Below are positions 186 through 17,248 of a stretch of 26,154 nucleotides of DNA, in pieces (the stretch's first letter is position 1; each line of letters begins with the position of its first letter). The position numbers and the translations under genes were made by a program. Under the pieces are notes generated by a model. That model was not told where the DNA came from. It did not search any database and worked only from the letters and a program-made list of their open reading frames with translations. The DNA lies in the IMG/VR virus record IMGVR_UViG_3300014914_000035, positions 1 to 26,154 of that record. The stretch is one strand, 5' to 3'. This stretch comes from a virus.

Positions 186-257
186 TAAACCAAACTTTGG
201 TGCATCGCGCCCAAATTTTCCCGGAATTTTTTCTTATTTTTGAAAACCTAACAAGGG

Positions 258-282: not shown

Positions 283-311
283 TGTACTTTGTATATATAA
301 TGTATTATAGT
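283..311 (+). promoter_or_regulatory. Promoter P1 for the packaging/procapsid operon
   Basis: A -35 hexamer TGTACT (283-288) and a -10 hexamer TATAGT (306-311) are separated by exactly 17 bp. The bases after the -35 read TTG, giving the TACTTTG block shared with P2 (4119) and P3 (17220). It lies 38 bp upstream of the first packaging gene. A second TATAAT at 296-301 has no matching -35 in the same register. Sigma70-like geometry is visible; the polymerase used is inferred. Confidence 0.7.
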
Positions 312-348
312 ATGATTATCAATTAATTTTCTTTCAAAGGTGAACAAA

Positions 349-603
349 ATGTCGAAGGACAACGCGTTATTAAAGCTAATTCAGGACAAGTATGGTGCTG
401 ACGAACACCCGATCTTGGTGATGGCTGAGATAGCGTTTGATAAAGATAGTGACGCTAAGCTTCGCCTTGACGCGTCCAAGTCTATCATGCCATATATTGA
501 AGCTCAGAAGAAAGCTATTGAAGTTAAAGCCGATATCAATGCTAATGTAGGCCTACTTCGTGTGTCTATGATCGAAGACGAACTATTGGTAGAAGACCAA
601 TAA
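349..603 (+). CDS. Putative small terminase subunit (DNA packaging)
   Basis: 84 residues, the first gene after P1 and directly before the large terminase, where the DNA-recognition subunit normally lies. The pattern HPILVMAEIAFDKDSDAKLR, then a short helix ending in PYIEAQKKAIEV, resembles short helical proteins placed before TerL in many siphophages; this is recognition by pattern and position. No helix-turn-helix is obvious. An in-frame GTG at 340 exists but lies inside the ribosome site AAAGGTGA (336-343); that site is correctly spaced for ATG 349, so 349 is preferred. Small terminases are often larger, so a different packaging-associated role is possible. Confidence 0.55.
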   Translation: MSKDNALLKLIQDKYGADEHPILVMAEIAFDKDSDAKLRLDASKSIMPYIEAQKKAIEVKADINANVGLLRVSMIEDELLVEDQ

Positions 604-628
604 TTACCTCCAAAGGTATCCCGACCTT

Positions 629-2041
629 ATGGATTTAAAATTACACAAGAAGCAAATAACTGTTGTTAAAGCAATTGATAAAGGTATCGCGAACTCCATC
701 CTATTTGGTGGTGCAGTGGGTGGTGGTAAGTCTTTTTTGCTACGTGCTATTGCTATCATATGGGCTATACGTGTTCCTGGTATTAACATATACCTATTTC
801 GTAGGTTGGTTAAGGATTTAAAAGCTACACACCTTCAAGGTGCGATGAGTTTTCCTATACTTCTTAGAGAGTACATGGAAGACAAACTGGTAAAAATCAA
901 CTTCTCTAATTCGATTATAGAGTTTACAAATGGATCCACTATATCTCTTTGTCATCTACAATACGACCACGATGTTAATAATTACCTTTCTCGTGAGATG
1001 AATATAGGGTTGTGGGACGAAGCCACTACGTTTACCCCGAAGATGATTAAGTTTATGAACTCTCGACTACGTCTGGGTTCATTAGATATACCAGATGAGT
1101 TTAAAGGTTGCTTACCATTTCAATTATATGCTACAAATCCTGGTGGACCAGCACATCACTATTTTAAATCTGGTTGGGTAGATGCTGCAGATCCTATGGA
1201 GTCATTCGTATCTCCAGTAGAAGATGGTAGTATGACGCGGATGTTTATCCCTTCGTTTTTAAGTGATAATCCGTCTCTTACCGTAAATGATCCGAACTAT
1301 GCCACTCGCTTATTAGGTATGGGCGATCCTGAAAAGGTTAAAAGATACCTGAAAGGTGATTGGTCAGCTGTTGAAGGGTTAGCGTTGCCGATGCTGAATC
1401 GGAAGCGGCATATGATACCTGAGCGGAGGTTGCCGATTGGTTGGAAGAAGCATGTAGGGTATGACTATGGTTATTCAGCTCCGTATTCAGTGTTGTTTTA
1501 CGCGGTAGCCAGTGGGGAGAGTGATGATGACAAGTTTAATCCACCTAAGGGAACGATCGTCTTTATCGGGGAGATATATGGTGATGACGGTCGAGAAGGT
1601 GGTCTGAAAGAGGATGTGAAGGTTACTGCTAGGAAGATATTGAGGTTTCAGAACGAGAGGAATTGGCATGTGCTACCAGGGCCTGCTGATAAGTCGATAT
1701 TTTCCAGTGAACGGGGTCCATCCATTTCAGAGATATTTGCTGGTGTAGGGGTGATTTTTAAACCTAGTGACAAATCTCCAGGGAGTAGAGTTAATGGGCT
1801 ATCACAGATACGGACGAGGTTGCATGCCGCGAATGATGATGGACCGATGGAAGCTCCTGGTATATTAATAATGGATAGTTGTCCTAGGTTATTCCAGCAT
1901 TTATCAGCTTTGGTTACTGACGAGAAGAATGATGAAGACGTAGATACTAGCTCACAACCTGACCATGACTATGATGTTGTAAGGTATATTGCGTTGGACA
2001 AATCAATGGAAATAATAACGATAGGTTACGAAGGTACTTAA
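629..2041 (+). CDS. terL: Terminase large subunit (packaging ATPase/nuclease)
   Basis: 470 residues, normal length for TerL. The motor that pumps DNA into the procapsid and cuts concatemers. The N-terminal ATPase has Walker A GAVGGGKS (residues 28-35), Walker B IGLWDEAT (126-133, acidic pair D130/E131) and a coupling-type ATNPGG (168-173). The C-terminal RNase H-like nuclease shows VGYDYG (D279), PGPADKS (D354) and a final acidic cluster PDHDYD near 444-449, consistent with three metal-binding acids. ATG 629 follows an AAAGGT at about 12 bases, a loose spacing, 25 bp after the small subunit. The stop at 2041 is one base before the portal start, implying coupled translation. Confidence 0.95.
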   Translation: MDLKLHKKQITVVKAIDKGIANSILFGGAVGGGKSFLLRAIAIIWAIRVPGINIYLFRRLVKDLKATHLQGAMSFPILLREYMEDKLVKINFSNSIIEFTNGSTISLCHLQYDHDVNNYLSREMNIGLWDEATTFTPKMIKFMNSRLRLGSLDIPDEFKGCLPFQLYATNPGGPAHHYFKSGWVDAADPMESFVSPVEDGSMTRMFIPSFLSDNPSLTVNDPNYATRLLGMGDPEKVKRYLKGDWSAVEGLALPMLNRKRHMIPERRLPIGWKKHVGYDYGYSAPYSVLFYAVASGESDDDKFNPPKGTIVFIGEIYGDDGREGGLKEDVKVTARKILRFQNERNWHVLPGPADKSIFSSERGPSISEIFAGVGVIFKPSDKSPGSRVNGLSQIRTRLHAANDDGPMEAPGILIMDSCPRLFQHLSALVTDEKNDEDVDTSSQPDHDYDVVRYIALDKSMEIITIGYEGT

Positions 2042-2042
2042 T

Positions 2043-3338
2043 ATGTCAAGCGTAATGAGACACTTGCAGAATATAGACTTACCGTTTACTTTGAACGCAT
2101 CGTATGCAGTGACGGCGCCTCAGTGGCTTAGGATCAGGGACGTCTTAAAAGGTTCTGATGCGGTGAAGTTGGCCGGCACTGAGTATCTACCTCAACTGTC
2201 TGGCCAAGACGATGATGAGTATAAAGCGTATAAAAAGAGAGCTGTATTTTTCAATATCACCTCACGGATATTGAGCACGAACAGTGGTGTTATCGTCCGT
2301 AGGACACCAAGTATTGAGTACAATGATCGTCTAGCTTATTACTTTGAAGATGATAGGATCGATAAAGTTACTTTCCATGAACTATTTCGGTACTCTGTTC
2401 GTGAAGTAATATCTACAGGTCGTGTCGGCATTCTAGTAGATGTGATGAACGATAAACCTGCAATTCATAAGTTTCCTACTGAGAGCATTTTGAATTGGGA
2501 GATGAATTTGGATGGGTCGATTAAGCAGATTTTACTTATGTCCACTGAGACTACTCTCGATCCAATTACCTTTGAAGAGGTTTCGGTGAAGGTATTTTAT
2601 CGTCTTCACCTGGTAAATGAAGTATACTCTATCACCAAATATGACGATACAGGTACTCCAAAAGGTACGACTCAACCGTCTGTACACGGGCGTACATTAA
2701 AGTATATACCGTTTACATGTATCACAACCTTTGGTTTAGACTTAGAACCAGTCAAGTCGCCCATCCTTGAGATCGTTGACTTAAATCTAAGCCACTATCT
2801 ATCCAGCGCAGATCTCGAGCATGGAAGGCATTTTGTAGGATGTCCCCAACCGTATATCACAGGTGGTACGTCAGAGGTCAAACTGAGAGTAGGTAGTGAA
2901 GTGGCTTGGGTCGTACCGAATGAGAAAGCGAAGGTCGGATACCTTGAGTTCCTTGGTGCTGGACTTTCTAGTCTTACTGATGCGTTGAAAGAGAAGCAGA
3001 GCCAGATAAGCCAGTTTAGTGCTCAGTTGATGGATACGAGTACAAGAGGCTCAGAAGCTGAAGGTACTGTTCGGATGCGATATAGTTCGGATGCTGCGAA
3101 TCTGAGTGATATCGCCTTGTCAGTAGAATCTGGCTTAGGTGAAGTGTACAACACGATAGCAGATTGGCTTAATGTAGATAACCCTACTATCGTGTTGAAT
3201 AAGGACTTTATCAGTACGAAGATGAGTTACCAAGAGCTTAACGCTCTCACAAAGTCTTTAGTTGATAAAGCTATAACACCTGAAATCTTTATGTATAACC
3301 TGGAACGCGGTGAGATGCTGCCTCCAGAAAATCAATAA
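2043..3338 (+). CDS. Portal protein, DUF4055 type
   Basis: 431 residues. The dodecameric ring at the capsid vertex that carries TerL during packaging and later the neck. The N-terminus carries a pattern typical of DUF4055 portal-like proteins: W..IRDVLKGSDAVK (28-42), AGTEYLPQLSGQ (44-55), EYKAYKKRAVFFN (59-71) and later GVIVRRTPS (82-90). The helical stretch near 300-330 (SSLTDALKEKQSQISQFSAQ) fits the wing/stem region. Position between TerL and scaffold supports the call. It is somewhat shorter than many portals, and no MuF-like head protein follows it. Confidence 0.88.
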   Translation: MSSVMRHLQNIDLPFTLNASYAVTAPQWLRIRDVLKGSDAVKLAGTEYLPQLSGQDDDEYKAYKKRAVFFNITSRILSTNSGVIVRRTPSIEYNDRLAYYFEDDRIDKVTFHELFRYSVREVISTGRVGILVDVMNDKPAIHKFPTESILNWEMNLDGSIKQILLMSTETTLDPITFEEVSVKVFYRLHLVNEVYSITKYDDTGTPKGTTQPSVHGRTLKYIPFTCITTFGLDLEPVKSPILEIVDLNLSHYLSSADLEHGRHFVGCPQPYITGGTSEVKLRVGSEVAWVVPNEKAKVGYLEFLGAGLSSLTDALKEKQSQISQFSAQLMDTSTRGSEAEGTVRMRYSSDAANLSDIALSVESGLGEVYNTIADWLNVDNPTIVLNKDFISTKMSYQELNALTKSLVDKAITPEIFMYNLERGEMLPPENQ

Positions 3339-3356
3339 TCACCGAGGAGAATCAAA

Positions 3357-4064
3357 ATGCCCAAGTTTATTATGGCTGAAGAGGATATGGCGGATTTGTC
3401 CGATGATGTTAAAGCTTTGTATACAGAGCAAGAGGACGAAACATTCATCCTGACAGGTATTGAAGGTATCGTACCTAAGACGAAGCTTGATGAGTTTCGT
3501 ACGAACAATATCGAGTTGAAAAATACACTCGATACGTTTAAAGACATTGACCCTGTAAAGCACGCTGAAATGGTTACTGAAATTGATGAGCTGAAGATAC
3601 GGCTTAATAACAGTGACTTCGACGATGATGCCATTAAGAAGATCGTTGAGAAACGTGTTCAAACTATGCAGGATGAGATGCTCGTTAAAGAGCAGAACAT
3701 GAAGAACACTATCGGTACTCAAGCCCGCCAGATCGAAACCATGGTTATTGATGGCCAGGTTAAGTCTGCAGCCCTTGAGCACGGTATTGCTGAAAATGCC
3801 ATGGATGACGTTACTCTTCGCGCGAAGAGTGTCTTCCGTATGGAGGAAGGTAAAGCTGTAGGTTACAATGGTGAGAATAAGATTTACGATGACACCGGCG
3901 TTGAACTTCAGAATATTAATGGTTGGGTTAAAGGTCTTGAGAAGACCGCGGCCCATCTCTTTAAGGCATCACAAAGTAGCAACATTAACAATGGTGATAA
4001 TACCGCCCTTGGCGATGTAAGTAAGATGTCGCCAGTAAGTAAGATTCGTTCGGCTTTAAGTTAA
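3357..4064 (+). CDS. Capsid scaffolding protein
   Basis: 235 residues between portal and major capsid protein, the standard place of a procapsid scaffold. It is highly charged and mostly helical, with an acidic N-terminal part, a heptad-rich coiled-coil segment at about residues 50-130 (TKLDEFRTNNIELKNTL onward), and a basic C-terminus (KMSPVSKIRSALS) of the kind that docks on the capsid shell. A strong GAGGAG lies 8 bases before ATG 3357. No serine or other protease motif is visible, so the scaffold is probably not fused to a maturation protease. The operon ends here with a rho-independent terminator. Family assignment rests on composition and context. Confidence 0.8.
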   Translation: MPKFIMAEEDMADLSDDVKALYTEQEDETFILTGIEGIVPKTKLDEFRTNNIELKNTLDTFKDIDPVKHAEMVTEIDELKIRLNNSDFDDDAIKKIVEKRVQTMQDEMLVKEQNMKNTIGTQARQIETMVIDGQVKSAALEHGIAENAMDDVTLRAKSVFRMEEGKAVGYNGENKIYDDTGVELQNINGWVKGLEKTAAHLFKASQSSNINNGDNTALGDVSKMSPVSKIRSALS

Positions 4065-4084
4065 GTCGAACTTCACATAAAGTC

Positions 4085-4117
4085 CCTCCAGGGTCCTCCC
4101 TGGAGGTTCATTTTTTT
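4085..4117 (+). terminator. Rho-independent terminator after the scaffold gene
   Basis: CCTCCAGGG (4085-4093) and CCCTGGAGG (4098-4106) form a perfect 9-bp GC-rich stem with a TCCT loop, followed by TTCA and seven T residues (4111-4117). It sits 20 bp past the scaffold stop and directly before promoter P2, insulating the capsid unit. Confidence 0.9.
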
Positions 4118-4118
4118 A

Positions 4119-4147
4119 TTTACTTTGGGATATTTCTGTATTATAAT
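4119..4147 (+). promoter_or_regulatory. Promoter P2 for the major capsid gene
   Basis: -35 TTTACT (4119-4124), 17-bp spacer, -10 TATAAT (4142-4147, perfect consensus). It shares TACTTTG and TATTATAATATCCT-type sequence with P3 and TACTTTG with P1. Transcription would start near 4154 and give a leader of about 110 bases before the capsid ATG. Confidence 0.82.
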
Positions 4148-4169
4148 ATCCTTAGAATATATATACAGG

Positions 4170-4234
4170 TTCATTCGGGTCGAATGAACTTTCTGATTTT
4201 GTCAGCCTCCCGGTGGGATGCTTAATTTATTAAG
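4170..4234 (+). promoter_or_regulatory. Hairpin-rich 5' leader of the capsid mRNA
   Basis: Three successive inverted repeats lie between P2 and the capsid ribosome site: TTCATTCG/CGAATGAA with a GGT loop (4170-4188, perfect 8 bp); TCCC/GGGA with a GGT loop extended by AGC/GCT across one mismatch (4204-4222); and CTTAAT/ATTAAG (4221-4234, sharing two bases with the previous stem, so the two compete). The ribosome site AGGAGG (4250-4255) remains free. The leader may stabilise this highly expressed mRNA or regulate it; neither is demonstrated. Confidence 0.55.
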
Positions 4235-4262
4235 CCATTAACTAACCGCAGGAGGTATTAAA

Positions 4263-5183
4263 ATGGCATCTGTAACCCTTATTGAATCCGCAAAACTTTC
4301 CCAAGATATGCTTGTTCGAGGTGTAATCGAGACGATTATCACCGTCGATCAGTTTTTCGAAGTTCTCCCTTTCATTGATATTGAAGGTAATGCTCTCAGC
4401 TATAACCGTGAGAACGTGGCCGGCGACGCAGGTTTCTACGGCGTTGGTGATACCATTACTTCCAAGGGCGCTGCAACCTTTACCCAGGTCACATCCAATC
4501 TGACCAAGATTATCGGTGATGCAGAAGTCGACAAGATGATCCAGGCTACCCGGTCCAATTTCAACGACCAGAAAGCTGTCCAGATCGCATCCAAAGCCAA
4601 AAGCGTTGCTCGCCAGTTTGCCAGCACACTTATTAACGGCGACGGCACATCCGAAACTTTTGAAGGTCTTTTGGCACTCCTTGTTGCCGGTCAGACAGTC
4701 GACTCTGGTGTCAACGGTGCAACCCTTACCTTTGAACTGATGGATGAGCTCGTTGATCGTGTAACAGATAAGGATGGTCGTGTTGACTATATCCTTATGA
4801 ACTCTCGTGAGCTTCGTGTTTATTACTCCTTGCTCCGTGGCCTTGGTGGCGCAACCATTGGTGATGTTGCTACTCTTCCCTCTGGCGCTCAGGTTCCTGC
4901 ATACCGCGGTACTCCCATCTTCCGTAATGACTACATCCCTGTAGATCAAGATAAAGGGACATCCACTGGTGTCTGCTCCACTATCTTTGCCGGTACTATT
5001 GATGAAGGCTCTGAGGATACTGGCATCGCTGGTATTACTGCTCGGAACGCATCTGGTATCAATATCGAAGACGTTGGTACTTCTGAGACTAAGGACGAGG
5101 ACATTACCCGTGTTAAGTGGTACTGCTCCATGGCCAACTTCTCTGAGCTCGGCCTTGCGGGTATTGACGGAATCCATCCCTAA
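4263..5183 (+). CDS. Major capsid protein
   Basis: 306 residues. The shell subunit, most likely with the HK97 fold. The segment from FASTLINGDG (about 118-127) through FEGLLALL, and the early FFEVLPFIDIEGNALSYNRE, match a common siphophage major capsid family. AGGAGG is ideally placed 7 bases before ATG 4263. Arginine codons are almost all CGN and many codons end in C, unlike the AGA/ATA-rich tail genes; this fits selection for very high expression. It has its own promoter and terminator, so it can be transcribed apart from neighbours. No N-terminal delta domain is needed at this length, as the separate scaffold would replace it. Confidence 0.92.
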   Translation: MASVTLIESAKLSQDMLVRGVIETIITVDQFFEVLPFIDIEGNALSYNRENVAGDAGFYGVGDTITSKGAATFTQVTSNLTKIIGDAEVDKMIQATRSNFNDQKAVQIASKAKSVARQFASTLINGDGTSETFEGLLALLVAGQTVDSGVNGATLTFELMDELVDRVTDKDGRVDYILMNSRELRVYYSLLRGLGGATIGDVATLPSGAQVPAYRGTPIFRNDYIPVDQDKGTSTGVCSTIFAGTIDEGSEDTGIAGITARNASGINIEDVGTSETKDEDITRVKWYCSMANFSELGLAGIDGIHP

Positions 5184-5209
5184 TCGATAGTTGTAAAGCG
5201 TATTATATT

Positions 5210-5247
5210 AAAAATCTAACCTACCAAATTGGTAGGTTAGATTTTTT
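5210..5247 (+). terminator. Strong terminator after the major capsid gene
   Basis: An 18-bp perfect inverted repeat (5210-5227 with 5229-5246; core CTAACCTACC/GGTAGGTTAG) ends in TTTTTT. The A-rich left end and T-rich right end could allow function from either strand. It lies 26 bp after the capsid stop. Genes downstream have no visible new promoter until P3, so read-through must supply them. Confidence 0.9.
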
Positions 5248-5275
5248 CTTCAACATCACCGAAAAAGGTTCTAAA

Positions 5276-5578
5276 ATGATTAAGTTAACAATTGTAAGTG
5301 GTAAGAAAAATCGGGTTATTCGAAATGTTTCATTCGTAGATGGTGAAGCGATGATCCAAGATCATCTCGTTCCTAAAGCGAAAATGATCTGCCGATACTA
5401 TAGTGTTGAAGCGGAGTTAGACGGCGAACCTCTCTTTGTAAATGCTGACGTGGACGCCGATAACGATGCTGACGCCGATAACGATGCTGATACTGATACT
5501 GATGTTGATGCTGAAGGTTCTGACGGCACTGAAGGTTCCGAAGGTTCCGTCTTTGGCTCCAGCCTCGAAGGGGAGTAG
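5276..5578 (+). CDS. Small protein with hyperacidic repeat tail (unknown)
   Basis: 100 residues, not recognised. The first ~57 residues look like a small beta-rich domain (MIKLTIVSGKKNRVIRNVSF onward). From about residue 59 the chain is almost only Asp, Ala, Asn, Thr, Gly, Ser and Glu, without a basic residue. That tail is built on an 18-bp tandem duplication (GACGCCGATAACGATGCT at 5453 and 5471) giving DADNDA twice, then TDTDVDAEGSDGTEGSEGS. Position between the capsid protein and the first connector suggests a head-associated role such as decoration or a DNA-mimicking tail, but that is inference. AAGG lies 7 bases before ATG 5276, and the stop is 3 bp before the next gene. Confidence 0.75.
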   Translation: MIKLTIVSGKKNRVIRNVSFVDGEAMIQDHLVPKAKMICRYYSVEAELDGEPLFVNADVDADNDADADNDADTDTDVDAEGSDGTEGSEGSVFGSSLEGE

Positions 5579-5581
5579 TCA

Positions 5582-6028
5582 ATGTCTTTAGAGGTAGGTG
5601 TTAACTCATACGTTACCGAAAATGAAGCAGATACATACTTCGATGATCGGTACAACGGGTCTGATTGGGGCGAAGTACCTGATACAGAGATCGCACTAGT
5701 TAGCGCTGCGGACTTGCTCGACTCTGCCTTTTCATGGTATAACGATAAGACAGAGTCAACGCAGGATCTTGAGTTTCCGAGAAATGAAGAAACAGATGTA
5801 CCACAAAAGGTTAAAAACGCACAATGTGAATTAGCATTAGAGATTCACTTGTCAGAAGGTGCAGTACTACTTCAAGTACCTAAACTCATTAAAACTGATA
5901 AAGTAACGACTGAGTTTTTCCTAAATTCGAGTGCATTTCCAACACATATCAAAAATCTTGTAACAAAATATGGTAGGTTTAAGTCTAACACTGACAATGC
6001 TGTAATACCTGTTAAACTAGAACGATGA
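5582..6028 (+). CDS. Head-tail connector/adaptor (DnaT-like family of phage necks)
   Basis: 148 residues. The pattern NSYVTENEADTYFDDRY (8-24), then a W, AADLLDSAF, LEFPRNEE and VPQKVKNAQCELALEIHL is typical of small helical proteins (Pfam DnaT_2-like) found just after phage capsid genes. They are generally taken as the first ring under the portal, despite the ssDNA-binding name given by similarity. The last four bases overlap the next ATG (ATGA), so translation is likely coupled. Function is inferred from family and position. Confidence 0.78.
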   Translation: MSLEVGVNSYVTENEADTYFDDRYNGSDWGEVPDTEIALVSAADLLDSAFSWYNDKTESTQDLEFPRNEETDVPQKVKNAQCELALEIHLSEGAVLLQVPKLIKTDKVTTEFFLNSSAFPTHIKNLVTKYGRFKSNTDNAVIPVKLER

Positions 6029-6381
6029 GTAGAATTATTCAAAATGCGATTAGAGCTTCTCAAAACTATAATCGAAACGATCTAGTAGTTATAAAGATTA
6101 AGGAAGACGTAGTAGGTACCTATGATCCACTATCAGGTGAGAGAGGTAATACGAGTCAAGTATTAACGACAGTTAGAGTAACTCGTCAAAGCATAAGTAC
6201 GTCTGAATTAACAGATTCAAAGATACGATTTGGAGATACTAAACTCTTAATACAAAGTCAAAAAGTTAAGGACGTAAGATTTTACGTAGATATGAGTGTA
6301 GAAGTTAACGGTGTAAATATGACCCTTAAACACTCATATTTAGACCCTTCAAATTCACTGTATATTATATATGTTCGATAA
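6025..6381 (+). CDS. Head closure / stopper-like neck protein
   Basis: 118 residues. Weak resemblance to small neck proteins that form the stopper ring: a GTYDPLSGE motif (about 31-39), a beta-rich body (TSQVLTTVRVTRQSI), an acidic loop, and a C-terminal strand ending LYIIYVR. In comparable siphophage clusters this slot, between the adaptor and the HK97 gp10-like protein, holds the head closure protein. Start overlaps the previous stop by 4 bases; its own end overlaps the next gene by 11. Confidence 0.6.
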   Translation: MSRIIQNAIRASQNYNRNDLVVIKIKEDVVGTYDPLSGERGNTSQVLTTVRVTRQSISTSELTDSKIRFGDTKLLIQSQKVKDVRFYVDMSVEVNGVNMTLKHSYLDPSNSLYIIYVR

Positions 6382-6778: not shown

Positions 6779-7142
6779 AGTAGATGTTGAAACTGAAATC
6801 CAAGCGAACTGGAATGAAACTCATGTCGTATACGAGAACGAAGAACTTAAGTACGCAGATGAGTATATTAGACCAGCAATAATCTATGGTGAATCCAACC
6901 AGGTAACTTTAGGACCTAGTGGTACACATAGAAGATTAGGGGTACTAGTTATTCAAATATTTGTGAAGGAAAATACAGGTACTAGGCGTATTAAATTTTT
7001 AGCGGATACACTTACACCTTTATTTAAGTCTGTAAAATTAGGTATTATACAGTTTGAATCTCCCACACTTATTCGTGTAGGACAAAATAACGGCTATTAT
7101 CAAGAGAATTTTCAAGTCCCTTTTTATGTGGACATTTGTTAA
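6759..7142 (+). CDS. Tail terminator protein (DUF4128-like)
   Basis: 127 residues from ATG 6759, or 135 from ATG 6735. The product (LFDQCRVDVETEIQANWNET, VVYENE, then GTHRRLGVLVIQIFVKENTG and LADTLTPLF) matches the tail terminator family that caps the tail tube and binds the neck. ATG 6759 is chosen because the protein then begins where relatives do, immediately before the first helix; neither start has a good ribosome site, and both overlap the previous gene (20 or 44 bases). The last residues (GYYQENFQVPFYVDI) fit the family C-terminus. Confidence 0.78.
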   Translation: MLFDQCRVDVETEIQANWNETHVVYENEELKYADEYIRPAIIYGESNQVTLGPSGTHRRLGVLVIQIFVKENTGTRRIKFLADTLTPLFKSVKLGIIQFESPTLIRVGQNNGYYQENFQVPFYVDIC

Positions 7143-7156
7143 CGGAGGAGTGATCA

Positions 7157-8344: not shown

Positions 8345-8444
8345 TTTACCCTACCGTGTTTGGGGCGTGCATTTCCTCGGTGACGTTGTAGGGGCGAGTG
8401 CACGTGCTCAAGCTTTAATATAAATCCTAATTACCGAAGGACTA
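8345..8444 (+). other. Non-coding spacer with GC-rich, possibly structured segment
   Basis: This 100-base gap between tail tube and chaperone genes is richer in G+C than its surroundings. CCCTAC (8349-8354) can pair with GTAGGG (8388-8393). GGGGCGTGCA (8362) is repeated as GGGGCGAGTGCA (8391), and GCACGTGC (8400-8407) is a perfect palindrome. No promoter matching P1-P3 and no terminator with a T run is present. It may be an RNA structure, a binding site, or translated by frameshift from the tube gene. Confidence 0.5.
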
Positions 8445-8843
8445 ATGATGAAAATTTCAAGTTTAGCAGTAGATAAGAAGAAAGAAGAAGAAGGTGTATG
8501 GAGTGACATCGGCGAAGGGGCAAAAATTCTAGTTGCGAGATCTGGAAACTCTAAATACCAAGAGTGTTTAAGGTTATCTATTAGGCCGCACCAGAATAGA
8601 TTGAGACGAAACTCTCTCCCAGATGATGTACTCGAAAATCTAACGATTAACGCGATGTCTCGACATATTTTACTCGATTGGTCAGGTATTTTAGACGATC
8701 AAAACGAACCTATTACTCACTCTATTGAGATGGCTAAAGATTTACTTACAGACTACCCTGAATTTAGAGAGATTGTATCATCTGCGTCGTCTGATTTTGA
8801 GTCGTATAAGTTAGAGCAGATTGAGGAGATTTCGGGAAACTAA
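8445..8843 (+). CDS. Tail assembly chaperone, G-type
   Basis: 132 residues. It equals lambda gpG in position (between tube and tape measure) and in having a frameshift site at its very end. Motifs: WSDIGEGAKILVARSGNSKY (18-37), YQECLRL, then a helical C-terminal part with DWSGILDDQNEPITHS. GAAGGA lies just upstream; ATG 8448 is spaced slightly better than ATG 8445. The last two sense codons GGA AAC, with the preceding G, make GGGAAAC (8834-8840), right before the TAA stop. Most ribosomes should end here and make the short form; a minority shift to make the GT fusion. Confidence 0.85.
   Translation: MMKISSLAVDKKKEEEGVWSDIGEGAKILVARSGNSKYQECLRLSIRPHQNRLRRNSLPDDVLENLTINAMSRHILLDWSGILDDQNEPITHSIEMAKDLLTDYPEFREIVSSASSDFESYKLEQIEEISGN
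8834..8840 (+). promoter_or_regulatory. -1 ribosomal frameshift slippery site GGGAAAC
   Basis: The heptamer reads G GGA AAC in the frame of the G-type gene, exactly the X_XXY_YYZ form required for tandem -1 slippage, and is followed immediately by the zero-frame stop TAA (8841-8843). The -1 frame is then open for 109 codons. Lambda uses GGGAAAG at the same place. Confidence 0.9.
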
Positions 8844-9169: not shown

Positions 9170-12100
9170 TACTGGAAAATTCTTACGGGGTGCGAAGCAG
9201 ATATCCACCTCATTTGATAAGATGAAGGTCCAAGTACGGTCTATAGCAAACTCAAGTAAAGTATTTTCGAAGTTCGGGTCATCCTTCCATTCAATGGTAC
9301 AATCTGTTGTTGGCGCGGCATCAATGTTAGCCGTTCAATTAGCCGCAGCATTTTCGTTTTCAGAAATTGTCGATGCAGTCACAAAAATCCAGAAGTTTGA
9401 AGCAACTATGGCTTCATTCACCGGATCCTTAAGTTCATCTAGGAAAAAGCTAGATGAAGTCTTTGAAATTTCAAATAAGCTAGGTATATCTTTTGAAGGT
9501 GCCGCGGCACCTTTTTCAAGATTCGCCGCAGCAGCCCAAGACTTCTCAGATACAGAAATAACTCATGTTTTTGAATCTTTTGCTACGGCAGCATCAGGTT
9601 TACAGATGAACATGAACGACGTCAATGGTACCTTTCTAGCTTTACAGCAGATCGTATCGAAAGGAAAACTCTCAATGGAGGAATTACGTTTGCAGTTAGC
9701 GGAACGTATTCCTGGTGCAATGCCTAAAGCTGCTCAAGCTGCCAAGATGAGTATGGAGCAGTTCGAAGAAGCTGTAAGAAAAGGAACCATAAACACTAGA
9801 GAGTGGTTACTATCGTTTTCCAGTATCGTAAAAGAAGACTTTCTTGAGGCATCAATGATTGCGCGTAAATCACTTGCCGCATCGATGAGAAGATTTGCAA
9901 ACCAGTTTTTACAGTTTAAAGCGAAATTAGGAACAAGTGGTGGGGCTGCTAAATCTTTTGCAGAAGTATTAAATACTATAACTGAAGAGTTTCTTAAGAA
10001 CGAAGACGCTATAAAGAGTGTAAGTGCGTTACTAGGTACTTTCGCCAATATAGTTAGTGATGTTACAAATAGTGTAATAGTAGATGTTTCAAAATCTACA
10101 AGTCAGATTAGTCACCTCACAAAGGTAGTATCTTTTCTATACTCAACATTAAAGAATTGGTTTGAGATATTTTTTACTCTAGGAGACATTATAGGCACCG
10201 CTACTGTATCAGGTGTAATGAAGCTTTATTTTGCGATTACGAATATATCTAGTGCGTTTAAGTCAGTTTATGATTTAGGTTCATTGACTTTTAAGTTTTG
10301 GGTTGGTGAAGCTAAAGCTGCGGCTGACTTGATAAGCGATAAATTCATGTCTTGGGTACACATTTTTGGTGAAATATTTAAACTTATTAAGGACTCGTTC
10401 AAATCACTATTAGATAGTATGATGGGTGAATTTGCAAACTTTATAGGTGGTATACACGATAAAATACCAGATATTGGTATGTTTAACCAATTAAGGTACT
10501 CACTAGATAAAGCAGCAAGTGGTATACGTGGAAATATGTCAGAAGACCCTATTGCACCTTTAGTTGAAAGAGTTAAAGTGAGTAGTGCAAAAATATTAGA
10601 TGTGAAAGAAGACCTTAAAGACCAATCGAAAAAGTTTAATGAGGATTTTCTAAGTAATGCTACCGCAACCGCGGACAAGATGAGTGAGATATATAAGAAA
10701 AGAATAGAGGACGGTGAAAGATTCAATTTAAACCAGAAAACTATAAATGATATATTTTTCGAAAATCTAAATCAGGCGTCTTCTAAGTTTAAACTTGATA
10801 ACCCGTTTGACTTTTCTTACGCTATAAACCCAGATGATCTCAATATGAAAGACCCAATTGAGAGTATGAGTAAAAATAGACCGAAGGTAGAAGAGCTAAA
10901 TGATAGTCTAGGTATAACAAGAGATATACTGAAAGAGATATTTGTATCATTTACAGACGTATCAACTAATATGGCCGATTCGTTTGGTAAAGCTGGACAA
11001 GCTATAGACGATATGACAAGCTCAATCCAATCTAGTATGGACAGTCAAGCCAAGATCTATAAAGATCTAGCAAAGTTTGAAGAACGGCATGCTGATAATA
11101 CAGAAGCTATAGAGCTTGCAAGGCAAACAGCGGCTAAAAAATCTGCGAAAATACAAATAGGATCCTATGGCGATATGACAAGTGCAGCTCAAGGGTTTTA
11201 TAGTGAGGGTAGTGAGGGTTATGAAGCATTAGGCGCCGCAGCTAAAATATTTAGGGTTATAGAAATGGCTATGGCTATAGAATCAATGACAAGCCAACTA
11301 GCTATGGATCAAACCCTTGGTACATCTAAAGCAAGTTTAGCCGTAGCTAATCAAGCATCCGGAGGTGACCCATACTCAGCGTGGGTAAGGATGGCAGCTA
11401 TGGCTGCGTCTATGGCTGCTATAGGGTATAGTATAAGTACAAGCTCTGGCCCGAATACTGGTCCAGATTACGACAAAATAAGGGAGTCTAATAGAGAAGA
11501 CCAAACTACAGGTACAATACTTGGAGATTATGATGAGTCTTCAAACTCAATAATTAATGCACTAGAGTCGCTTGTAGATATCGCAGAGATAGAGTTACAG
11601 TACTCGTCACAAATGTTAATAGCCCTTCGAAGTGTGGAACAGACTAGTGCGATAAATATCAAATCTGCGTCAAGTTTAAGTGTATCCGCACGAGATACTG
11701 TTAATGAATATTTAAGTGATTTAAAAAGTGAGTCTCCGTCTAGTGTGGTGGTATCTAAATCTTATAAGGCGGACATTGTAGATTTCGGAATTAAGATTCA
11801 AAATCAATCGGTAGAATCGATCCTAAATAGTACAGCGCTAATAGATGGATTTGTTGACATCGTTAGGAAGATAACCACTGCAACCCGAGTGAACGCATGG
11901 ACAAGTAAGAAAAACGTTAGACTACAGGTCGACAGTGATGACGCATTCATGGTTACACTCACTACATCTATAAATTCTATATATGAGACATTAAGTCTAG
12001 CTAGTAATGCAATAGGTATAAATAGTGATATCTTTAATGACCAAATTGATAATTTTGTAATAGATTTAGACGCGTCAATGAAAGGTCTTAAAGGAGAGGA

Positions 12101-13613
12101 CCTTGCGGAACACCTCAATCAGGTCTTTAGTAAGTTAGGTGATGAAATGGCTGAGCATTTATTCTCCGATTTTTTAGGTTTCCAAAAAGTTAGTGAAGGT
12201 TTTTTCGAAACTATTACAAGGGTAGCATCAGGTGTTGAGCAGGCGACTTCAGCTCTTAATCTTCTAGGTATAGAGACGATTAGGTTAGAGGACGTAATTA
12301 ACACTCAAGGTATTGTAGCTGTTGAAATATTTAAGCAGTCAATTGAGGTAGCCTATGGTAGTGGTTCTGGGTTATCAAGCATAATAAATACCCTTGATTC
12401 TGACTTTGAAACACTTAATTCAACATTCAAACAACTTCACTATACATTAGATTTATTGACTGCAGCAGGTCAATCAGACATATCTCAAACGATGATATCC
12501 GGTGCAGGTGGATTAGACATACTAACGTCAAGTCTTGAAATATTTACCAGTAAATATTTCTCTATAGAGGAGCAGTTAGTTAGTACTACCGAAGTGATGG
12601 TTCGTGAGTTTGATCGATTAGGTGTAGCACTACCTGATAGTGCAGCAGGCTTTCGAACTTTAGTACAATCTATAGACACTACTACTGATGCAGGTCAATC
12701 GCTTTATGGTGGATTAATATCACTAGTTGAAGGGTTTGGAGGTTTAACAGATCTTCGTGAAAAAGTAATAGAAGAGCAAGGAGGATTAACACCTGATGGA
12801 TCTAGTACTAGTGCATCAATAGTTGATCAGTTATCGGGTGTAACTGAAGGGTTCGATAAAATCATTAGAGAATCTGCGATGGACGAATACGAGATTGCTC
12901 TGTATAATGTTAATGCTAAATTCCAAACTTTTGCGGATACTATATTAAATTTAGGAGTATCTCTTGAAGATACAAATTGGCATCAAGCTAGAAGTATAGA
13001 GATTAGTAAGATTGAGGCGAAAGAGATATCAAGATTAGAATCAGAGTTAGCAAAAGAACAAGCTGATCGACAACGAGCTATAGAACAAGCCCACTCAGAA
13101 GCGACAAAGACAGTTGAGGCGAGTATCTCAGCTCTTAGTAGTTCATTATCAATGCTTGAAGATGCTAGATATTCGATGAAGATAGGTGGTGGAGTAATAC
13201 CTATCGGATCTACTCGTCAAGAGGCAAAACTTGAGCTTGATAACGTATTACGTGCGGCGAGAAGTGGGGATTTATCAAGTATCAATACACTAGATAAACC
13301 TTTAAACTTATTAACAGATTCTAGTGCTAACTTGTTTTCTACGTTTGAAGATTACCAGAGAGATTATTGGGATACGTATCTAAAGATTGAAGAGCTTGAG
13401 CATTTAACTAGTGATCAATTATCTATTGAGGAACGCTCTCTACAGATGATAGAAGTACAGACGACAGCGATTAATAATATGAGTGAACAACTTGCGTCAA
13501 TGCGACAAGAACTCGCTGCTGCAAATTTCGCTATCGCTAGGAATACTCAAAATACTGCGAACCAACTGAAACGATGGAATGGTGATGGTATGCCAGAGGA
13601 ACGGCCTGCGTAA
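9141..13613 (+). CDS. Tape measure protein
   Basis: 1490 residues, the largest gene, which sets tail length and is ejected ahead of DNA. Residues ~75-260 match the tape measure N-terminal domain: SFSEIVDAVTKIQKFEATMA, LGISFEGAAAPFSRFAAAAQ (115-134), LQQIVSKGKLSMEELRLQLA (168-187) and then ERIPGAMPKAAQAA. Hydrophobic segments occur at ~52-72, ~340-385 and a methionine/alanine-rich stretch around 700-770, possible membrane-crossing parts. A coiled coil (EISRLESELAKEQADRQRAI) lies near 1300, and the C-terminus holds another helical heptad region. At roughly 1.5 Å per residue the tail would be near 220 nm. No good ribosome site precedes ATG 9141; coupling to the chaperone reading frames is likely. 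The stop overlaps the next ATG (TAATG). Confidence 0.93.
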   Translation: MPAKLEAILDTGKFLRGAKQISTSFDKMKVQVRSIANSSKVFSKFGSSFHSMVQSVVGAASMLAVQLAAAFSFSEIVDAVTKIQKFEATMASFTGSLSSSRKKLDEVFEISNKLGISFEGAAAPFSRFAAAAQDFSDTEITHVFESFATAASGLQMNMNDVNGTFLALQQIVSKGKLSMEELRLQLAERIPGAMPKAAQAAKMSMEQFEEAVRKGTINTREWLLSFSSIVKEDFLEASMIARKSLAASMRRFANQFLQFKAKLGTSGGAAKSFAEVLNTITEEFLKNEDAIKSVSALLGTFANIVSDVTNSVIVDVSKSTSQISHLTKVVSFLYSTLKNWFEIFFTLGDIIGTATVSGVMKLYFAITNISSAFKSVYDLGSLTFKFWVGEAKAAADLISDKFMSWVHIFGEIFKLIKDSFKSLLDSMMGEFANFIGGIHDKIPDIGMFNQLRYSLDKAASGIRGNMSEDPIAPLVERVKVSSAKILDVKEDLKDQSKKFNEDFLSNATATADKMSEIYKKRIEDGERFNLNQKTINDIFFENLNQASSKFKLDNPFDFSYAINPDDLNMKDPIESMSKNRPKVEELNDSLGITRDILKEIFVSFTDVSTNMADSFGKAGQAIDDMTSSIQSSMDSQAKIYKDLAKFEERHADNTEAIELARQTAAKKSAKIQIGSYGDMTSAAQGFYSEGSEGYEALGAAAKIFRVIEMAMAIESMTSQLAMDQTLGTSKASLAVANQASGGDPYSAWVRMAAMAASMAAIGYSISTSSGPNTGPDYDKIRESNREDQTTGTILGDYDESSNSIINALESLVDIAEIELQYSSQMLIALRSVEQTSAINIKSASSLSVSARDTVNEYLSDLKSESPSSVVVSKSYKADIVDFGIKIQNQSVESILNSTALIDGFVDIVRKITTATRVNAWTSKKNVRLQVDSDDAFMVTLTTSINSIYETLSLASNAIGINSDIFNDQIDNFVIDLDASMKGLKGEDLAEHLNQVFSKLGDEMAEHLFSDFLGFQKVSEGFFETITRVASGVEQATSALNLLGIETIRLEDVINTQGIVAVEIFKQSIEVAYGSGSGLSSIINTLDSDFETLNSTFKQLHYTLDLLTAAGQSDISQTMISGAGGLDILTSSLEIFTSKYFSIEEQLVSTTEVMVREFDRLGVALPDSAAGFRTLVQSIDTTTDAGQSLYGGLISLVEGFGGLTDLREKVIEEQGGLTPDGSSTSASIVDQLSGVTEGFDKIIRESAMDEYEIALYNVNAKFQTFADTILNLGVSLEDTNWHQARSIEISKIEAKEISRLESELAKEQADRQRAIEQAHSEATKTVEASISALSSSLSMLEDARYSMKIGGGVIPIGSTRQEAKLELDNVLRAARSGDLSSINTLDKPLNLLTDSSANLFSTFEDYQRDYWDTYLKIEELEHLTSDQLSIEERSLQMIEVQTTAINNMSEQLASMRQELAAANFAIARNTQNTANQLKRWNGDGMPEERPA

Positions 13614-14506
13614 TGAAAGTCATTAGACCTATAGAGATTACGGATAGTAATCTAGATTCTACGAATGTCTCTGAAGACGAATATAGCTTGTGGGTTATAG
13701 GCACTACGTATGCAGAAGGTGACATAGTTATAATGACTACAGGTGTTCATCGATTATACGAGTCTTTACAAGATTCAAATACAGGTAATAACCCATCATC
13801 TACGAGTGGGTTCTGGCTCGATATTGGAGCTACGAACGCATGGTCAATGTTCGATGAATCTGTAGGTAACGCTACTTCTAATAGTGATACGATCGAAGTA
13901 GAGATAACTCCTGGAAGGATAAATAGTCTTGCGCTACTAGAGATCTCTGCAAACAATATAACTATAGTACTTAATGACCCCAGTGCTGGGGATGTATACG
14001 ATGAAACAATAGATATGGTTTCTGATAGTGGTATAACAGACTGGTATGCTTATTATTTTGAACCGATCGTCCATAAAACTGATCTTGTTATAACTGATTT
14101 ACCAATGTTTGGAGACGCATCGTTAACGGTCACTATAGATTACACAGGTAGTACTGCAGAATGCGGAAAGATGGTTGTAGGTATATATAAAGATTTAGGC
14201 GAAACTCAGTATGGCTTACAGTCCGGGATCATGGACTATTCTCGAAAGGAGACAGATGACTACGGTAATACATCTGTAACATTACGTCGGTACGCTAAAA
14301 CTGCACAAGTAGATCTCTTTATTATGAATAGTAATATAGATGCGACTCAACAAGTCCTTACAGAGTTACGGTCAACCCCTGCAGTATGGGTTGGCTCGAA
14401 TGATTACTCATTGTCTATTATTTACGGTTTCTATCTTGATTTCAATATTGTTATTGAGGGACCAAACCATAGTGAGTGTAATTTAGAAATTGAAGGGTTA
14501 GTCTAA
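13613..14506 (+). CDS. Distal tail protein with N-terminal carbohydrate-binding-like module
   Basis: 297 residues, first gene after the tape measure. Residues ~27-70 (WVIGTTYAEGDIVIMTTGVH, then Y, NTGNNPSSTSGFWLDIG) have the aromatic/glycine layout of CBM5/12-like modules. It continues NAWSMFDE, a motif common in phage proteins that follow the tape measure, then a beta-sandwich-like domain. The C-terminal part (RRYAKTAQVDLFIMNSNI through AVWVGSNDYSLSIIYGFY and LEIEGLV) is conserved in relatives as far as I recall. It could be the distal tail protein or a tip component; no exact family name is certain. AGAGGA lies upstream and the stop overlaps the next start by one base. Confidence 0.65.
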   Translation: MKVIRPIEITDSNLDSTNVSEDEYSLWVIGTTYAEGDIVIMTTGVHRLYESLQDSNTGNNPSSTSGFWLDIGATNAWSMFDESVGNATSNSDTIEVEITPGRINSLALLEISANNITIVLNDPSAGDVYDETIDMVSDSGITDWYAYYFEPIVHKTDLVITDLPMFGDASLTVTIDYTGSTAECGKMVVGIYKDLGETQYGLQSGIMDYSRKETDDYGNTSVTLRRYAKTAQVDLFIMNSNIDATQQVLTELRSTPAVWVGSNDYSLSIIYGFYLDFNIVIEGPNHSECNLEIEGLV

Positions 14507-15171
14507 TGGCTACAACTATTCCAGGTATAACTTCTTTACCTACAGCGCCTGCCAGGACGGATTCACCTAGTGTATTTATTACTCGTGCGGATGCATTTGT
14601 AGATGCGTTAGAAAACGATTTTGATGGCGAAATGAATGCATCTATTACAGCTATAAATATCGTAGGTGAGGAGATGGAGGTGTTAAGCTCTTCAGCTGAA
14701 GAAGATGCATTAACTGCTGAAAATGCAGCCGCTAATGCTCTTTCTTCTGCTAACGCCACAGTATATACTGATGTAACCACTTATGATATCGGAGATACTG
14801 TAATCGGATCCGACGGCCAAGCGTATCGTTGCTTAACTGACTCAACGATAGGTGATGACCCTGTAGGTAGTGTAACAGGCGATTGGCAGCAGGTCACAGG
14901 TTTACAACATGCAATTGATGTAACTAGTAGCTTTACAGCTTCATCAGGCAACAGATATCGACTTAAACATACCGCGTCAATCATTGTAACACTACCAATC
15001 AATGGTTTAGGTACGATAAAGTTAATTGAAGACACAGACCCAAAAGACTATAGTATTGAAGTATCCCGGAACGGGAAAACTATTATGGGTTTAGCAGAAA
15101 ATATGGATATTACTGAAACTTTTCTCGGAGTAGAATTAGTCGGTGATGGAACAAACTGGAGGATTTCATAA
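14506..15171 (+). CDS. Tail fibre/tip protein with CBM-like module
   Basis: 221 residues. The N-terminus (TSLPTAPARTDSPSVFITRA, DAFVDALENDFDGEMNAS) has the helical P-x-x-P-x-R-x-D pattern found at the head of many phage fibre proteins. A helical alanine-rich linker (60-85) leads to a CBM-like module at ~88-131 (TTYDIGDTVIGSDGQAYRCL ... DDPVGSVTGDWQQV), in which the usual first tryptophan is replaced. The C-terminal ~85 residues are a beta-rich domain ending VELVGDGTNWRIS, typical of phage virion proteins that close on such a tip. GAAGGG precedes ATG 14506. Probably part of the tail tip or a side fibre. Confidence 0.68.
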   Translation: MATTIPGITSLPTAPARTDSPSVFITRADAFVDALENDFDGEMNASITAINIVGEEMEVLSSSAEEDALTAENAAANALSSANATVYTDVTTYDIGDTVIGSDGQAYRCLTDSTIGDDPVGSVTGDWQQVTGLQHAIDVTSSFTASSGNRYRLKHTASIIVTLPINGLGTIKLIEDTDPKDYSIEVSRNGKTIMGLAENMDITETFLGVELVGDGTNWRIS

Positions 15172-16688
15172 TGAGCAACATGGTTGATTTTTTAGGTCAT
15201 CAAGGAACTATTACTAAACTATATACTGCTGAGGTAGATATACCTGCTAAGTCGCCTGTTAAGTTTAATTATTACACAGGTAAGGTTTCACCTATACTAG
15301 AGTATAATCAACCTTTTAATGAGATCACAAGTAGTAACATGATAAATGGTTGTATAATATACTTGGATTCAGATCATTATATGTTTCTTACAGCGATAGG
15401 TTCACAAGTTTTAATTGTGAAAATGGACACTATCTCTAAGTTTCCCGAAATAGTATACTCTGAAATACTTATAACCGGCTTAGAAAATTATAGGCCAATA
15501 TCTGGGTGTAAAGTCTCAGACGGGAAAGTTATTATAACCTCTTTTGATACAAATATAGGTCAAAGTGTTAGGTCTCTTGCATACGACACATCAAACCCTT
15601 CAGTTACTCTTGATAGTTCAATTATTACTGTCGGTACAGCAAATCCAGAGTATTTGGATGATGTAATGACGAACGGTGCAATAGCTAGTTCGACAGAAGG
15701 TAAAGCGTGTATTATTTATTGCCAAAGTGATGGTAGTAGTCATACAGGTGTTTATTGTACTAATGTTCAATTAACAGGTAGTAGTTTAGCATCTACGGGT
15801 GTAGCAAATCAAATATTTGCGTATAGTTCGATTACAACAGACAATGCGATTATAGGTATCGCAGAGTGTGGAGAAGATAAAGTAGCGGTCTCACGAACTG
15901 ACGAGATAAATAGTGGATCTATAGTTCGCGTTGTAGATTTTTCAGGTACAACACCAACTACAGGTTCAGAGCTAGCGCTTAGAACGTCGGGTACTACCTC
16001 AGCGGGTGACTGTCTGATAATGGATATAGGACGAACAGATGCTTTCTTAGCATCGTATTTGGCGACTACTGGTAACTATGAAATGGCTGTTATCACAGTA
16101 TCAGGGACAACATGTACAAGACAGACACCGACGGCTTTAACGTCTCAAGTTAATAAGAGTTTGTTTCAGAAGAGCTGGCAAAGATCAGTAATCTTAGAGA
16201 CTGATGTTATTCTGCTTTTCGAGGTCGGAGGAGGTATTGGTGGTATTATTACCTTATCCGGGAACACTGTAGATTTATCTGATATAGATAATGGATCACA
16301 CTCCTTAGGACGTTACGAATTTTTAGTAGACGTAATCAGGGTTGGAGACCATGAGGTGTACATCGTAGATGAGTTTGGTCATGTTTTTTATACAGAGTTC
16401 GACGCTAACTACGCAGCACCTAGAGGTTCAGGCTCTTATGATATTATAGGTTGGTCTACTGAAGCATCTATAGTAACCGCAGGTAATGAAGTTCGTGTAA
16501 TGTTAAAAGGACTTCTGAAGGATCAAAGGCAGCAAGGTAGTGATGATGACTATGTATCTTATTTTTTCGAACAGCCAGGATATATGATGAACATGTATGA
16601 AGTAGGTGGAACTGCAAATTCTTTTTACTACAATAATAACACTCTTGCTACATATCGTGGAAACGATCTACTAATAAAGGGAGTCTAA
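15171..16688 (+). CDS. Large beta-rich tail-tip/fibre protein, possible beta-propeller (unknown)
   Basis: 505 residues, not recognised as a named family. Only the first ~45 residues (MVDFLGHQGTITKLYTAEVD, IPAKSPVKFNYYTGKV) look like a docking segment. After this, strand-turn-strand units repeat with similar content: YMFLTAIGSQVLIVKMD, KVIITSFDTNIGQSVRSLAY, KACIIYCQSDGSSHTGVY, GEDKVAVSRTDE, DAFLASYLATTGNYEMAVIT, VILLFEVGGGIGGIITL and HEVYIVDEFGHVFYTEFD, each about 50-60 residues apart. This is what a six- or seven-bladed propeller would show, but that is inference. GGAGGA lies 7 bases before ATG 15171, inside the previous gene. Confidence 0.6.
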   Translation: MSNMVDFLGHQGTITKLYTAEVDIPAKSPVKFNYYTGKVSPILEYNQPFNEITSSNMINGCIIYLDSDHYMFLTAIGSQVLIVKMDTISKFPEIVYSEILITGLENYRPISGCKVSDGKVIITSFDTNIGQSVRSLAYDTSNPSVTLDSSIITVGTANPEYLDDVMTNGAIASSTEGKACIIYCQSDGSSHTGVYCTNVQLTGSSLASTGVANQIFAYSSITTDNAIIGIAECGEDKVAVSRTDEINSGSIVRVVDFSGTTPTTGSELALRTSGTTSAGDCLIMDIGRTDAFLASYLATTGNYEMAVITVSGTTCTRQTPTALTSQVNKSLFQKSWQRSVILETDVILLFEVGGGIGGIITLSGNTVDLSDIDNGSHSLGRYEFLVDVIRVGDHEVYIVDEFGHVFYTEFDANYAAPRGSGSYDIIGWSTEASIVTAGNEVRVMLKGLLKDQRQQGSDDDYVSYFFEQPGYMMNMYEVGGTANSFYYNNNTLATYRGNDLLIKGV

Positions 16689-16689
16689 T

Positions 16690-17211
16690 ATGTTATACAG
16701 ATATACTTTTAAACCTGGTATCTTTGAAGTACTAGAACCCAACCAATCATGGACTAGAAATGCCCAAGGTAGACTTAGCTTTCTTAGGTCTATGGACGTT
16801 ACAGTTCAAGGTATAAATTCAGATGGAAGCTGTTGGTGTGTACTAGATAGCTACTATGAAAAAGATCTAAAAGGTACGAGATATACTCGTAGTACAGATA
16901 TAGAGCATACGAGTTATTATATAACGTTACCTGAGTTTTATGGTAGATTCCCAAATGCTAAAGCTGATGCGATTTACGCTGCGGCTAATCCATTACCTAC
17001 TGAGACTTCTCCTAACATTCATGCAGGAAAAATCAAACGTTGGTTAGATGAGATAAAGGCGATGGGTTACACGACAGGTGTAGACTTGATGCACCTAAGA
17101 ACTATATCCGGAATTGAGGGTTTAATCACTTTAAATTTCTTCGATGCTTCAGATAGCTTAATCATCCTTGCTAAAGAGAAAGGTCAGAGTATACCTTTCA
17201 ATGTAAAGTAA
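16690..17211 (+). CDS. Unrecognised 173-residue protein of the tail-tip cluster
   Basis: No family is recognised. It starts one base after the previous stop, with AAGGGAG at good distance from ATG 16690, so it is cotranslated with the propeller-like protein and may act with it. Visible features: a beta-rich first half with two nearby cysteines (GSCWCVLDSYYEKDL), a tyrosine-rich stretch (TSYYITLPEFYGRF), a central amphipathic helix (AGKIKRWLDEIKAMGYTTGV) and a C-terminal beta segment (LITLNFFDASDSLIILAKEK). There is no signal peptide or membrane segment. It closes the operon segment before promoter P3. Confidence 0.6.
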   Translation: MLYRYTFKPGIFEVLEPNQSWTRNAQGRLSFLRSMDVTVQGINSDGSCWCVLDSYYEKDLKGTRYTRSTDIEHTSYYITLPEFYGRFPNAKADAIYAAANPLPTETSPNIHAGKIKRWLDEIKAMGYTTGVDLMHLRTISGIEGLITLNFFDASDSLIILAKEKGQSIPFNVK

Positions 17212-17219
17212 AACAACTA

Positions 17220-17248
17220 TTTACTTTGTGTAATTAATATGTTATAAT
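17220..17248 (+). promoter_or_regulatory. Promoter P3 for the fibre/adhesin block
   Basis: -35 TTTACT (17220-17225), 17-bp spacer, -10 TATAAT (17243-17248) preceded by TG (TGTTATAAT, an extended -10). It shares TTTACTTTG and TATAATATCCT with P2. The previous gene ends 9 bp upstream with no terminator between, so fibre genes get both read-through and new transcripts. Confidence 0.82.

Follow-up and report, generated by a model that had tools for sequence, protein, structure and literature searches.

Three promoter-like sites in an uncultured virus, P1 to P3, share a −35 element that departs from TTGACA, and the locus raises the question of what reads these sites and why the departure is conserved. 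The window, by which we mean the whole stretch of DNA analysed here, is a linear IMG/VR virus fragment of 26,154 bases. Based on PHROG matches, its gene set is siphophage-like, with terminase, portal, scaffold, capsid, and tail genes, and its capsid protein shares 60 to 66% identity with the capsid proteins of the Acinetobacter phages Effie, HHU4, and MD-2021a, of Mesyanzhinovviridae, and of numerous uncultured viruses. The portal protein retrieved no relatives when used as a search probe. Coordinates are collected in Table 1.

Table 1. Promoters, terminators, RNA hairpin, and genes discussed in the text
Feature	Genome	Position	Strand	Evidence
T1, intrinsic terminator-like hairpin directly upstream of P1	Window	255..273	+	−9.7 kcal/mol, z −2.75
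P1 promoter, TGTACT-N17-TATAGT, before packaging genes	Window	283..311	+	Read directly; pattern; matrices
Small protein, first gene after P1	Window	349..603	+	phrog_15261 (unknown function), E 1.6e-06; ATG at 349 behind AAAGG
Large terminase subunit	Window	629..2041	+	phrog_979, E 2.5e-28
Portal protein	Window	2043..3338	+	phrog_145, E 2.3e-86
Head scaffolding protein	Window	3357..4064	+	phrog_206, E 2.5e-19
T2, strong intrinsic terminator, ends packaging unit, directly before P2	Window	4085..4106	+	−19.2 kcal/mol, z −4.5
P2 promoter, TTTACT-N17-TATAAT, capsid unit	Window	4119..4147	+	Pattern; matrices
Capsid mRNA leader hairpin, 11-bp stem, GGU triloop	Window	4167..4191	+	Fold; relatives' leaders
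Major capsid protein	Window	4263..5183	+	phrog_212, E 4.9e-71
T3, perfect palindromic terminator, 17-bp stem, closes capsid unit	Window	5210..5246	both	−22.0 kcal/mol, z −8.4
P3 promoter, TTTACT-N17-TATAAT, before distal, probably tail-fibre, block	Window	17220..17248	+	Read directly; pattern; matrices
First gene after P3, 605 aa	Window	17290..19107	+	phrog_9998 (unknown), E 8.7e-08; GTG start behind AAAGGA
HTH1, small early HTH-like protein	Effie	926-1429	+	
HTH2, small early HTH-like protein	Effie	2607-2963	−	

All three sites were read in the sequence where the initial annotation had placed them, with spacers of exactly 17 bp and with TATAATATCCT common to P2 and P3. They lie on the coding strand in the non-coding 4% of the window, each facing genes, and the base preceding the −35 is A in every case. 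Spacer and −10 (TATAAT or TATAGT) have σ70-type geometry; the −35 (TTTACT or TGTACT) matches TTGACA at four or three of six positions, which is too few to count as close. Searching the window for TACTTTG-N14-TATARTRT returned three forward and zero reverse matches, with zero in the control, and the shared pattern TKTACT-N17-TATARTAT was seen three times against 0.0025 expected per window under a third-order Markov model. In leave-one-out matrices, each of the three outscored all other positions (17 to 20 bits vs. ~11 for the next). A matrix built from the capsid promoters of distant relatives (eleven TKTACW sites, none of them from the window) ranked P3 first (22.0 bits), followed by P2 (21.0) and P1 (15.5), with the next position at 9.3. 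A generic σ70 scan found 57 promoter-like sites in the window vs. 56 in shuffles, and because these counts are nearly the same, such a scan alone could not have revealed P1 to P3. The window holds three TKTACW sites and no TTGACW site (TKTACW:TTGACW = 3:0). We regard it as very likely that P1 to P3 are σ70-type promoters of a TKTACW class resembling the early promoters of T4. An exact search with the extended motif in 2.9 million viral contigs gave a single match, antisense of a microvirus-like capsid gene, which we took as chance.

Each promoter would head one transcription unit, namely packaging, the capsid with its own terminator, and a distal block. PHROG matches agree with the initial annotation that P1 precedes packaging genes and P2 the major capsid gene, and from its position upstream of the large terminase, the ORF at 349..603 occupies the place of a terminase small subunit. 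P3 precedes a distal block, but the proposal that this is a fibre block found no backing, as its first gene falls in an unknown family and the ORFs at 19118 and 21496 had no PHROG match. Features that went beyond this annotation were the terminators directly before P1 and P2, the homology of P1 with P2, and T3. The T-rich tail of T1 extends into the P1 −35, and T1 with P1 is homologous to T2 with P2 over ~60 bp, with an alignment score of 73 where shuffles reached at most 42. Judged by this alignment, a single terminator-promoter cassette is present twice, at P1 and at P2. T3 was absent from the consensus scan because its T run forms part of the stem; since this palindromic terminator stands downstream of the capsid gene, P2 would mainly serve that gene. 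A head/capsid/fibre split of late transcription had been considered less common than one long operon. However, the terminator-promoter junction before the capsid gene recurs in relatives (for example, loci L007, L008, L013, and L047), so a capsid split is not unusual in this group, and the order of terminator, promoter, structured leader, and capsid gene is repeated in relatives as well.

The structured leader is itself a recurrent feature. NGN-triloop hairpins were found in 68 of 87 related capsid leaders (L004-L113), compared to 9.5 (maximum 16) in shuffles, and 21 leaders had two or more, compared to 0.6. The central base of these triloops is G (GGU, GGA, GGG, UGA, CGA, and AGA), and paired hairpins often share the same loop. 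The capsid leader matched no Rfam family in searches covering six sources. These hairpins might be where capsid synthesis is autoregulated at the level of translation. In the window, a second leader hairpin at 4208-4218 is weak and missing from the minimum-energy fold.

Several other elements of the window were recorded along the way. Seven direct copies of TAAGTTCTTCGTTC, with 21- and 27-base periods, occupy positions 1-190 upstream of P1, and one inverted copy lies near 6836 inside a tail gene; these repeats could serve a packaging, origin, or regulator role. Between the tail protein and chaperone genes (8345-8444), the complementary blocks CCCTAC/GTAGGG and GTGCA/TGCAC possibly form a structured or attenuating RNA. 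A slippery GGGAAAC at 8834-8840, where the tail assembly chaperone ORF ends, is typical of a −1 frameshift into the open stretch downstream. At the right end (25968-26154), three 63-base tandem repeats that are 99% identical lie within an ORF running off the fragment.

The deviation from TTGACA follows lineage and is not noise. Capsid promoters of the window's relatives have the same geometry and two kinds of −35, TTGACW (G-type) and TKTACW (T-type). One change on the capsid tree is enough to separate the 14 T-type promoters from the 24 G-type promoters, and none of 500 shuffles gave a value as low. The window sits on a long branch on the T-type side, together with Effie and HHU4, its exact placement being tentative; Effie's own capsid promoter is outside the TKTACW class. 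Across the complete Effie genome (50.0 kb of unique sequence and an exact terminal repeat of 3.6 kb), the TKTACW:TTGACW ratio at 17-bp spacing was 9:0 in unique sequence, where 0.5 sites are expected by chance, and 15:0 including the terminal repeat. This bears on whether the motif falls randomly with respect to gene starts, an outcome that the initial annotation had named as telling against it: five of the nine unique sites are intergenic as annotated, and the other positions are mostly in the early terminal-repeat region. Ratios were 6:1 in HHU4 and 7:0 in MD-2021a. In 20 related virus records, a non-random sample picked through a shared HTH2 protein, there were 64 TKTACW and two TTGACW sites, compared to six and three for reversed-pattern controls. 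Together with the relatives' matrix, this last ratio bears out the earlier observation that the −35 differs from TTGACA and shows the difference to be conserved. Barton, a phage that infects the same strain as Effie but is unrelated to it, had a ratio of 0:4.

In Effie, TKTACW promoters precede early and replication genes on both strands. The same is true of the phage contigs C86 and C79, which contain nine to thirteen TKTACW sites depending on stringency. These contigs (C86 is JASJBC010000013.1) come from the same 'Acidimicrobiia' MAG and are apparently two parts of one phage genome, C86 being the virion module and C79 the replication and modification module. Because relatives use TKTACW before early genes too, the element is not a late-specific switch. 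The initial annotation had suggested a phage-set late promoter; a promoter type specific to the phage lineage is what we see, but the term "late" does not fit the early and replication genes of Effie and C86/C79.

Early promoters of T4 (GTTTAC-17-TATAAT) share with the window sites the T at the third −35 base, the TAC core, the 17-bp spacer, and a TATAAT-like −10 followed by a purine, and they likewise occur at many sites per genome while TTGACW is absent. Across the whole T4 genome, TKTACW:TTGACW was 23:0, and the first 50 kb contained eight TTTACW and no TTGACW. Whole-genome ratios were 20:0 in RB69 and 29:0 in 44RR, and the Acinetobacter T4-like phage AB1I1T had 18:0 in 50 kb. By contrast, whole genomes of RB49 (3:25), RB43 (1:3), KVP40 (4:8), and Aeh1 (3:13) favored TTGACW. 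Early promoters of RB49, RB43, and Aeh1 are of this TTGAC type, with the same geometry and host polymerase but with G at the third −35 base, a preference at −33 that Nolan et al. 2006 had contrasted with the T of T4 and for which they proposed a role of Alt (PMC1524935).

The resemblance to T4 is not complete. T4 early promoters begin GTTTAC, whereas the window sites have A at −36; among the window's relatives, G was present at this position in 5/9 sites of Effie, 5/6 of HHU4, and 8/9 of C86/C79. TGTACW variants are absent from T4 but common in the window's lineage, and the window sites drive virion genes, whereas late genes of T4 are transcribed from separate promoters of the gp55 sigma. T4 middle promoters likewise place a phage-specific sequence instead of a −35 ahead of a host −10. 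However, their MotA box is centred at −30 and lies 11-13 bp from the −10, whereas the window element is at the σ region 4 position, with 17 bp. The spacing is not MotA-type, as 14 bp separate the end of TTTACTTTG from the −10 and 17 bp separate the hexamer from it. By sequence, then, the window promoters are of the same class as T4 early promoters, and reading by the host holoenzyme is predicted. According to passages of PMC6024815 and PMC2988021, T4 early promoters require no viral factor and are read by unaltered host σ70 polymerase. Because promoters with the same −35, spacer, and −10 need no viral factor there, the activator or modified polymerase invoked by the initial annotation is unneeded.

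To this pattern of T- and G-type phages corresponds a pattern of cytosine-modification genes. A gp42-like dCMP hydroxymethylase is present in T4, RB69, 44RR, Effie, HHU4, and MD-2021a, all favoring T at the third −35 base, and AB1I1T carries a hydroxymethylase along with a beta-glucosyltransferase. No gp42-like enzyme above the cut-off was found in RB49, RB43, KVP40, Aeh1, or Barton, in which this base is mostly G. With gp42 as the tblastn query, matches ranged from 1e-13 to 1e-18 in Effie, HHU4, C79, and genome G001. Pooled TKTACW:TTGACW counts were 142:2 in phages with the hydroxymethylase vs. 12:58 in those without it, a difference with p ~1e-5 at the phage level when kinship is ignored (Mann-Whitney); the gp42-bearing T4-type phages may be one clade, and independent switches may number as few as two. 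dCMP hydroxymethylase and the T-type −35 co-occur in two unrelated phage lineages. Opposite types were found in phages of the same host for E. coli (T4/RB49), Aeromonas (44RR/Aeh1), and Acinetobacter (Effie/Barton, on the same strain), and because these host-matched pairs differ, the host does not set the third −35 base. A host-set −35 was thus ruled out by these pairs and by the MAG, in which neither motif was enriched outside C86/C79.

The genes of the window's relatives also indicate what the modification may be. The residue equivalent to 177, which is Asn in canonical enzymes, is Asp (dCMP-specific) in gp42 and in all aligned thymidylate-synthase-like proteins of the group. In the relatives, this Asp-177 enzyme is accompanied by a NodU-type carbamoyltransferase, a PRA-PH protein, and a dCMP deaminase, and the modification gene set comprises PF16861, PF02543, PF00303, PF01503, and PF00383. 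The carbamoyltransferase PF16861 occurred in 12/12 related virus records of at least 44.7 kb, as well as in C79, and in 0/9 capsid relatives outside the group. Passages of PMC8670742 report a demonstrated 5-hydroxymethylcytosine carbamoyltransferase activity for the same five-family gene set and tie it to 5-carbamoyloxymethylcytosine. The phages described there match the window's relatives in gene set, the modification of the relatives being predicted from genes alone, and promoters are not the subject of those passages. The 26-kb window is a fragment outside the modification region and contains none of these genes, so its cytosine modification is a prediction from relatives.

Phages with other modifications gave too few sites to be informative (SPO1, with hmU, 3:2; 9g, with modified G, 2:0), as did lambda (0:0). 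LR756500 (L216, L217), a 462-kb uncultured jumbo phage with a gp42-like hit, had nine TTAACW vs. 2.8 and no TTGACW at 17-bp spacing. This would be another −35 lacking G at the third base, but the signal is weak, and although TTAACW was mildly raised, LR756500 was uninformative as a third lineage.

We propose that P1 to P3 are probably host σ70 promoters whose −35 gave up its G:C pair in response to hypermodification of the template cytosine. From the major groove, σ region 4.2 recognizes the third −35 pair. The host housekeeping RNA polymerase (σ70/σA) would read P1 to P3 through the −35, the 17-bp spacer, and TATAAT. Cytosine in these phages would be substituted at position 5, with 5-carbamoyloxymethylcytosine predicted in the window's relatives and glucosylated 5-hydroxymethylcytosine as the T4 counterpart. 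A bulky C5 group on the template cytosine at the third −35 position would occupy the major groove and interfere with recognition by σ region 4.2, and selection would then have swapped G:C (TTGACA) for T:A (TTTACW or TGTACW). The C of TTTAC would be tolerated through the contact made by its G partner, and early or late timing would be set elsewhere than in the TKTACW element. That cytosine modification caused the change at the third −35 base seems to us likely, if by no means assured. The broader claim that hypermodification replaces this G:C by T:A in every cytosine-substituting lineage, independently of host, has in our view slightly better than an even chance of being correct.

The −35 could instead be set by a phage factor, with HTH1, HTH2, or an unseen sigma-appropriating protein binding TKTACW and recruiting host polymerase in a MotA/AsiA-like manner. 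Effie, G001, and C86 share both conserved HTH proteins, which match no known family (G005 also has HTH2); a TKTACW promoter stands just upstream of HTH1 in the first three genomes, and TKTACW is used by 20/20 HTH2-bearing records. However, the HTH2 association follows from how these records were selected. T4, RB69, and 44RR share the −35 without a homologue of either protein, and because T4 lacks both, neither is necessary for the promoter class. The 17-bp spacer is also the exact contact geometry of σ region 4, unlike a MotA box, and the early terminal-repeat region of Effie uses TKTACW as well. We therefore consider such a factor unlikely and retain HTH1 and HTH2 as candidates for timing. 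In a tblastn search of 50,697 phage records, the two proteins were found only in the Acinetobacter group and Xp15; homologues occur in L064, C86, G005, and Xp15. A phage sigma factor was rejected, as no Sigma70_r4 domain was found in eight related virus records.

It is rather doubtful that these are plain host σ70 promoters in which the T reflects lineage inertia or strength tuning, unrelated to DNA modification. T4 early promoters are active on cloned, unmodified DNA too, which counts for this reading, as does the grouping of T-type promoters by descent on the capsid tree. Yet the identical base change occurs in unrelated lineages with different hosts, while host-matched phages without the hydroxymethylase retain G. 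Moreover, random weakening would spread over positions, and instead the third base is fixed and TTGACW is at background.

A role for Alt, in which T at −33 is favored through contact with the ADP-ribosylated alpha subunit, was proposed to explain T4 and RB69 vs. RB49, RB43, and Aeh1 (Nolan et al. 2006; PMC1524935). For the promoters considered here it is improbable, as a tblastn search for Alt and ModA in Effie, HHU4, C86/C79, G001, and the window found no homologue, the best E being 0.57. That the element is a late-specific phage promoter is scarcely credible: its three window copies all stand ahead of virion genes, but early genes lie outside this fragment, and in relatives the element also heads early and replication genes, on both strands.

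That T4 early promoters have an odd −35 has long been known, and how they differ here from RB49 and Aeh1 was put down to Alt (PMC1524935). A chemical cause is indicated because a second unrelated group has the same base change, lacks an Alt homologue, and is predicted to modify cytosine differently. We found no earlier statement linking the third −35 base to cytosine modification in the open-access literature, although one could exist. If hypermodification of the template cytosine is that cause, it would account for the odd −35 of T4 early promoters, and the third −35 base would be a sequence-only marker of cytosine-modified phages, this phage included. Predicting such phages would be useful for restriction, CRISPR, and cloning. 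It would also mean that a virus that alters the chemistry of its DNA has to rewrite the signals read by the host polymerase as well.
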